Part shown: positions 59,316-61,439 of the stretch, in pieces | Layout of the letters: each line of letters begins with the position of its first letter | How positions within the stretch are numbered: the stretch's first letter is position 1 | Assembly: GCF_029338555.1 (NCBI RefSeq) | Contig: NZ_CP119989.1 | Coordinates: 744,001-808,000 of the forward strand | Length of the DNA stretch: 64,000 bases | Source: Halobaculum marinum | GTDB taxonomy: Archaea > Halobacteriota > Halobacteria > Halobacteriales > Haloferacaceae | Direction of reading: 5' to 3' | Program-made: the position numbers and the translations under genes | The notes under the pieces: model-generated | What the model saw: only the letters and a program-made list of their open reading frames with translations | Databases searched by the model: none | What the model was told of the DNA's origin: nothing

Positions 59316-60083
59316 ATGGAGCGATCCACGTTCGTCGACCGACTCGACGAGGAACTGGGCACCGACGCGTACGCCGACCTCGACGCCTCTCCGAACGGCC
59401 TGCAGGTCGGGTCGCGGACCGGCGAGGTCGAGCGCGTCGCCTTCGCCGTCGACGCCGTCGAGGCGACCGCCGAGGCCGCCGTCGAGTGGGGCGCCGACGC
59501 GCTCGTCACCCACCACGGCGTGATCTGGGGCGGCCTCGACCGCGTGACGGGCCGCGAGTACGACCGCGTCGCACCCCTGATCGCCGACGACGTGGCGCTG
59601 TACGTGTCGCACCTCCCGCTGGACGGCCACCAGACGCTCGGCAACGCCGCGGGCGTCGCCGACACGCTGGGGCTGGTCGACCGCGAACCGTTCGGGGAGA
59701 TGGGGCCCGAGTACGTCGGCCAGCGCGGGGTCGCGCCCGACGGCTACACCGCACCGGACCTCGCCGCCACGCTGGAGGACCACCTCGACCACGGCGGTCA
59801 GGGCGTGCAGGTGCTCGACTTCGGCCCCGAGGTGATCGAGGACGTGGGGATCGTCACCGGTAGCGGGAGCGACTGGCTCCGCGAGGCCGAGTCGCGGGGG
59901 CTGGACGCGCTCGTCACCGGCGAGGGGAAGGGGAAGGCGTACCACGAGGCGCGCGAGGCCGGCGTCTCCGTGTTCCTCGCGGGCCACTACGCGACCGAGA
60001 CGCTCGGCGTTCAGGCAGTGCAGGCGCTCGCCGAGGAGTGGGGACTGGAGACGACGTACCTCGACCACCCGACCGGGCTGTAA
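59316..60083 (+). CDS. Nif3-like dinuclear metal center protein
   Basis: 255 residues of the DUF34/NIF3 (YbgI) family, which forms hexameric rings with a two-metal site. Metal ligands are in ALVTHHGVIWGG (His-His), the Asp in SHLPLDGHQTLGNA and the C-terminal GHYATETLG (His and Glu). Proposed roles include metal chaperoning or nucleotide hydrolysis, but none is settled. It lies between agmatinase and the rhodopsin relic. Start ATG 59316 gives the family N-terminus with GTDAYADLDASPNGLQVG. Confidence 0.9.
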   Translation: MERSTFVDRLDEELGTDAYADLDASPNGLQVGSRTGEVERVAFAVDAVEATAEAAVEWGADALVTHHGVIWGGLDRVTGREYDRVAPLIADDVALYVSHLPLDGHQTLGNAAGVADTLGLVDREPFGEMGPEYVGQRGVAPDGYTAPDLAATLEDHLDHGGQGVQVLDFGPEVIEDVGIVTGSGSDWLREAESRGLDALVTGEGKGKAYHEAREAGVSVFLAGHYATETLGVQAVQALAEEWGLETTYLDHPTGL

Positions 60084-60084
60084 C

Positions 60085-60288
60085 GGCGCGGACTCCTCGC
60101 GGCGTTCGACGGGCCTCCTGCTCCCGGCGACGGAGGTGCTCGTGTTCGGCTACCTCGACGTGGTCGCCACGGGCGGATTCGTCGTGTTGGCGGTGAACGG
60201 TCTCGCTCGCGACGACGACACAGTCGGTGCCGACGAGGAAGACGAGGCAGACGAGGCCGACGGCACGGCGTCGGTCGCCGCCGACTGA
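60085..60288 (+). pseudogene. Relic of a microbial rhodopsin C-terminus (helix G) lacking the retinal lysine
   Basis: Directly after the Nif3 stop, one frame reads LLLPATEVLVFGYLDVVATG followed by GFVVLAVNGL and an acidic tail up to TGA at 60286-60288. It aligns without gaps to helix G of haloarchaeal sensory-type rhodopsins as I recall them (PT-x-DV-x4-YLD-x-VTKVGFGFIAL). The Schiff-base Lys is replaced by Thr (ACG for AAG) and the next Val by Gly (GGC for GTC). Helices A-F are absent; upstream is the intact Nif3 gene. A GTG at 60136 could start a 50-codon product, but the fragment looks like a decaying gene end. Confidence 0.6.
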
Positions 60289-60368
60289 CCGACCGACTGC
60301 CGGGCTGATTCCCCGCCCGCGACGCGCGAACCACGCGGTTCAAGCGCCCCGCGACCGCACCGCCGACA

Positions 60369-61439
60369 ATGAGCGACGAGGGCCACGACGACGACGGCCA
60401 CGACGACGGCCACGACGAGGCGACCGGCTACGAGACGCCCCACCGCGAGGCGTTCGACCACGACCCGCTCGGTCACACGCGCGTGGCCGGCGGGATGACC
60501 GTCGGCGAGTTGGTCGAACAGTACGGCCACGCGGGCATCGGCGCGGAGTCGGTCCACGAGGCCGCGGACGTGCTCTCGGAGATGTGGGCCGACGACGACT
60601 GCACCGTGTTCGTCTCGCTGGCGGGGGCGATGGTCCCCACTGGGATGCGGCGCATCGTCGCGGACCTGATCCGCGACGGCTACGTCGACGCCCTGATCAC
60701 CACGGGCGCGAACCTCACCCACGACGCCATCGAGGCTATCGGCGGGAAACACCACCACGGCGAGGAGCGCCAGGAGGGGAAGACCCTGCGCGAGCACGAC
60801 GAGCAACTCCGCGACGAGGAGGTCGACCGCATCTACAACGTCTACCTCCCGCAGGAGCACTTCGCCGAGTTCGAACAGCACCTCCGCGAGGAGGTGTTCC
60901 CGCCGCTGGCCGAGGCGGACGGCGCCGTTTCAATCGCCGAGTTGTGTGCGGAGTTGGGCCGCGCCAACAGTGAGGTGAACGAGCGCGAGGACGTGGCCGA
61001 GGGCGCCGGCGTCGCCGCCGCGGCCTACGAGCACGACGTGCCCGTCTACTGCCCCGCGGTGCAAGACTCGGTGCTCGGACTGCAGGCGTGGATGTACGCG
61101 CAGACCTCCGACCTGACGCTCGACGCCCTGGCGGACATGACGCCGTTGACGGATCAGGCGTTCGACGCCGAGGACGCCGGCTGTCTGCTCATCGGCGGCG
61201 GTGTCCCGAAGAACTTCACTCTCCAGACGATGCTCGTGACGCCGCGGGCGTACGACTACGCGGTGCAGGTGACGATGGACCCCGAGGCGACGGGCGGCCT
61301 GTCGGGGGCGACGCTGGAGGAGGCGCGGTCGTGGGGGAAACTAGAGAAGGACGCGAGGAACGCCTCCGTGTACGGCGACGCGACGGTGTTCCTCCCGTTG
61401 CTCGTTGCGGCGGCGCGCGAGCGTGTCGAAGCCGAGTAG
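60369..61439 (+). CDS. dys: Deoxyhypusine synthase
   Basis: Transfers the aminobutyl group (from spermidine, or an agmatine-derived group in haloarchaea) to the aIF5A lysine, using NAD. 356 residues. VFVSLAGAMVPTGMRRIVAD, ALITTGANLTHDAIEAIGGK and LLIGGGVPKNFTLQ are NAD/substrate motifs; the catalytic Lys is in EEARSWGKLEKDARN near the C-terminus. The N-terminus has an unusual His/Asp-rich repeat GHDDDGHDDGHDEATG (about 5-20). Clustered with aIF5A and agmatinase. Confidence 0.96.
   Translation: MSDEGHDDDGHDDGHDEATGYETPHREAFDHDPLGHTRVAGGMTVGELVEQYGHAGIGAESVHEAADVLSEMWADDDCTVFVSLAGAMVPTGMRRIVADLIRDGYVDALITTGANLTHDAIEAIGGKHHHGEERQEGKTLREHDEQLRDEEVDRIYNVYLPQEHFAEFEQHLREEVFPPLAEADGAVSIAELCAELGRANSEVNEREDVAEGAGVAAAAYEHDVPVYCPAVQDSVLGLQAWMYAQTSDLTLDALADMTPLTDQAFDAEDAGCLLIGGGVPKNFTLQTMLVTPRAYDYAVQVTMDPEATGGLSGATLEEARSWGKLEKDARNASVYGDATVFLPLLVAAARERVEAE

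Follow-up and report, generated by a model that had tools for sequence, protein, structure and literature searches.

The sensory rhodopsin II and transducer system of haloarchaea (SRII/HtrII; genes sopII and htrII) is the closest described counterpart of the locus analysed here, which comes from a species of the salt-loving archaeon Halobaculum. Haloarchaeal opsin-related proteins (ORPs) are full-length, lack the retinal Lys and group in a clade of their own close to the sensory rhodopsins (Becker et al. 2016, PMC4915679), and gene loss underlies the patchy distribution of rhodopsins among haloarchaea (PMC1885257). A literature search pairing sensory rhodopsin with deoxyhypusine synthase, whose gene (dys) adjoins the locus, found no paper.

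We analysed a window of 64,000 nucleotides from Halobaculum marinum (contig NZ_CP119989.1, positions 744,001–808,000, forward strand), in which positions 60112–60288 are almost certainly a pseudogene fragment between two housekeeping genes, judged from sequence comparison—the final quarter of sopII, comprising its last 58 codons and stop codon, the rest of which has been deleted. The fragment shares with the SRII/HtrII system helix G, the acidic tail, the stop and, as in congeners, the position beside dys, but helices A–F and htrII are gone and the Schiff-base Lys is Thr. It resembles the ORPs in the absence of this Lys and is unlike them in being a one-helix remnant, nearest to a Lys-bearing sopII, rather than a full-length protein. 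As in the described cases of patchy distribution, a single lineage appears to have lost a rhodopsin, and here the loss has left a visible scar at the syntenic site. The features of the locus, in window coordinates, are as follows.

59316–60083, + strand: nif3 (Nif3-family protein), intact, a 255-aa open reading frame; left neighbour of the deletion.
60084–60111, + strand: 28 nt containing the left deletion junction, not clearly sopII.
60112–60207, + strand: sopII helix G relic, 32 codons that align without gaps to the intact genes of four congeners.
60208–60288, + strand: what remains of the sopII C-terminal tail, variable and acidic, and its TGA stop, delimited by alignment with intact congener genes.
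60328–60368, + strand: 41-nt dys upstream element (GAACCACGCGGTTCAAGCG...), kept across congeners.
60369–61439, + strand: dys (deoxyhypusine synthase), intact, a 356-aa open reading frame; right neighbour of the deletion.

A sequence-only reading of this DNA had proposed a rhodopsin helix-G relic with an acidic tail in the frame at 60085–60288. The frame is present as described (translation GADSSRRSTGLLLPATEVLVFGYLDVVATGGFVVLAVNGLARDDDTVGADEEDEADEADGTASVAAD, then a stop), and the proposal was borne out by an identity of 28/32 residues, without gaps, between the helix G relic and the sopII product of congener G008, and by E values of 1e-12 to 2e-8 in four congeners. Recognisable sopII begins only at 60112, not at 60085 as had been supposed, and runs through helix G and the acidic tail to the original stop at 60288. 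The tail is indeed that of sopII, ending in SVAAD (PVAAD, VVSAD or STAD in intact genes), and the TGA is the same stop as in the intact congener genes. With the relic peptide as the query in a six-frame search of 11 whole Halobaculum genomes (its own among them), matches outside its own genome reached E < 0.01 only at four congener sopII genes flanked by nif3 and dys (G008, 1.2e-12; G005, 5.7e-12; G002, 6.2e-11; G001, 1.8e-8); the next match was a bacteriorhodopsin-like gene of the studied genome itself (E 0.007). The check for a rhodopsin match thus came out in favour of a relic. The nearest outside sequence was sopII of G008, the sister of the studied genome on our trees (BLASTP against the G008 protein, E 1e-15), and local DNA alignment of the nif3–dys gap with the congener intervals gave scores of 63–74, compared with a maximum of 25 in 200 shuffles. 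The relic is not a microbial (type 1) rhodopsin in the sense of PF01036: the seven-helix domain is absent, with helix G alone left and no Pfam match, and Thr stands at the Schiff-base position (60169–60171).

Synteny agrees with the earlier suggestion that a rhodopsin gene was deleted between nif3 and dys, leaving its last helix, to which we add the tail. Orthologues of nif3 occur in 10/10 congeners (80–86% identity); those of dys are likewise present, and its product scores above the cut-off of the Pfam DS family. The order nif3–htrII–sopII–dys is intact in G001, G002 (H. gomorrense), G005 and G008, with a transducer gene followed by a rhodopsin gene in intervals of 3.14–3.20 kb, and recurs in three other genera, one of them of another family (G016, G034 and G051; 3.06–3.45 kb). 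The identity of these genes is supported by the best PDB match of the G005 rhodopsin (N. pharaonis SRII, E 9e-42) and by the HAMP and MCP domains encoded by the transducer gene upstream of sopII in G008. The studied genome has a gap of only 285 bp, in which the relic matches congener sopII in orientation and in position between nif3 and dys; in six further congeners (G003, G004, G006, G007, G009 and G010) the gap is 62–122 bp, and a search of these six gaps for sopII relics gave nothing that stood consistently above the rest. Given the intact order in four congeners and three other genera, the htrII–sopII pair is most simply read as the older state of the locus, from which approximately 2.9 kb would have been lost here.

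We propose that an ancestor with the order nif3–htrII–sopII–dys underwent a deletion of about 2.9 kb, probably in one or two steps, that would have taken htrII and sopII helices A–F and halted before the dys upstream element. This element (GAACCACGCGGTTCAAGCG) starts precisely 41 nt upstream of the dys ATG and, slightly altered in sequence, does so too in those gene-lacking congeners that were compared; its distance from dys is the same in congeners with and without sopII, and it contains the inverted repeat GAACC-N4-GGTTC. It is probably the dys promoter, and the need to retain that promoter would probably have limited the deletion on the dys side. On the other side, the 28 nt at 60084–60111 may derive from the htrII C-terminus, an extra piece of sopII or leftover nif3–htrII spacer. 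The htrII C-terminal motif RGLLTEFD fits best and makes the htrII C-terminus a suggestive source, although 71–216 of 5,000 shuffles score equally and 563 of 8,000 real window segments (7%) score as high. The sopII E–F loop (RGLLAAFDGP) as a source of 60084–60114 was rejected, being equalled by 379 of 1,000 shuffles against G008 and thus not above chance. An alternative candidate alignment places the 28-nt stretch in the sopII F–G loop with a 2-nt gap.

Two helix-G residues common to the four congener genes are altered in the relic. At 60169–60171 (+ strand), ACG (Thr) replaces the Schiff-base Lys, for which each of the seven intact genes in the comparison has AAG or AAA; the single-base change from AAG to ACG is as the sequence-only reading had it. 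At 60148–60150 (+ strand), GGC (Gly) replaces Val (GTC in 4/4 intact congener genes), a substitution that had previously been overlooked. The Val-to-Gly change directly after the lost Lys, formerly taken as a second lesion, is instead normal variation within the genus, because the intact G005 gene also carries Gly there (K-G-G-F; GGC). The remaining differences from G008 and G005 are mostly synonymous. In a codon model the relic branch had an omega of 0.16–0.24 (background, 0.09), with likelihood ratios of 0.5–1.15 against the background and 1.9–3.8 against omega = 1, so that departure from neutrality is borderline at most; the test is without power, and the value says little because part of the branch predates the deletion. 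With the Lys and six helices gone, the remnant would not bind retinal, and since it also has no transducer it is most likely inert and drifting.

Were the relic nevertheless expressed, for example from the GTG at 60136, the product would be a 50-aa membrane peptide of one helix that has taken on a new, retinal-free role; a retinal-free single-helix peptide had also been considered in the sequence-only reading. The open frame offers several GTG or TTG codons, the encoded peptide has a hydrophobic stretch and then an acidic tail, and dN/dS on the branch of the fragment is less than 1, a value that does not differ significantly from the background. However, the frame contains no ATG, its earliest possible start is that same GTG, and two conserved helix-G residues are altered, including the Lys that defines the family. 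The frame is open to the original stop, with frame-preserving indels in the tail, but an open frame is to be expected at this base composition: 30% of composition-matched shuffles stay open across 58 codons and a stop arises from just 1.9% of single-base changes, for which reasons openness counts for little as evidence of a product. The short form occurs in no other Halobaculum genome among the 11, so no relative pairs it with a locus free of rhodopsin, a result that favours a relic. A scan for sigma-70 promoters found none and was not counted, as that consensus does not apply to archaea. We regard such a peptide as unsupported and very unlikely, and infer from the sequence that no functional product is made.

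Still less probable is that the locus never held an intact gene and acquired only this piece, through transfer or recombination. Rhodopsin genes do pass from one haloarchaeal lineage to another (PMC1885257), but this fragment occupies the homologous site, has the orientation of the congener genes and precedes the same dys upstream element, and its best match is the gene of the sister species. The most remote of the alternatives, with a negligible probability, is a chance likeness between a hydrophobic intergenic frame and helix G. When searched alone, the fragment matched no Pfam family at any E value up to 10, and its best PDB match, at E 1.9, is not significant; we attribute this to a fragment too short to score in those libraries. 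Chance is refuted by the E value of 1e-12 in an unbiased whole-genome search, together with the fact that every strong outside match was the syntenic gene. The pseudogene fragment is therefore preferred, and it is an ordinary, well-supported gene fossil, not surprising in kind—a clear scar of sensory-rhodopsin loss where close relatives retain the gene.

Trees were built from nif3 and dys, from an rpoB region and from all of these together. The studied genome is sister to G008 (support of 54, 89 and 70, respectively) and G001 branches next, in a clade with support of 86–100; both of these relatives keep htrII–sopII. The grouping with gene-bearing species suggests a loss separate from that in the gene-lacking congeners. 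G005, which carries the genes, has G004, without them, as its sister (support 88–100), and if inheritance was vertical, htrII–sopII would have been lost more than once in Halobaculum. The relic helps to map repeated rhodopsin loss across the genus.

The sequence-only reading had further taken the relic to mark a loss of phototrophy or phototaxis. Three full-length opsin genes are left in the genome: a halorhodopsin gene and a sensory rhodopsin gene adjoining a transducer gene, both with the Lys kept, and the following gene outside the window.

G000:C1:224373–225032, minus strand: bacteriorhodopsin orthologue (L001/L140), full-length.

This gene sits at a bacteriorhodopsin locus conserved with G001, G008 and G010, adjoins an intact brp/blh gene and has deltarhodopsin as its nearest relative among solved structures. 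Its frame is fully open, with Lys216 changed to Thr (ACG), Asp85 to Gly and Asp96 to Ala (numbering of H. salinarum bacteriorhodopsin), and its branch omega is 0.34 against a background of 0.053 (likelihood ratio 25.7; 4.5 against omega = 1). Like the ORPs it is without the Lys, but ORPs form a clade near the sensory rhodopsins, whereas this gene is a bacteriorhodopsin orthologue; it may be either a pseudogene or an opsin that is becoming retinal-free. Because the retinal Lys, Asp85 and Asp96 are missing, light-driven proton pumping has probably been lost as well, whether the gene has decayed or has turned into a retinal-free opsin. The phototrophy part of the earlier claim thus probably holds, through a separate gene whose catalytic residues are lost, whereas a loss of light sensing does not, since a sensory rhodopsin and its transducer are kept. 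There is no general loss of light biology, as halorhodopsin, the sensory rhodopsin with its transducer and brp persist; rather, the relic and the dead-looking bacteriorhodopsin gene together suggest that this lineage is giving up some of its light biology but holding on to halorhodopsin and one sensory rhodopsin. In G006 and G009 no rhodopsin scored above the Pfam cut-off; the other Halobaculum species have 2–5.
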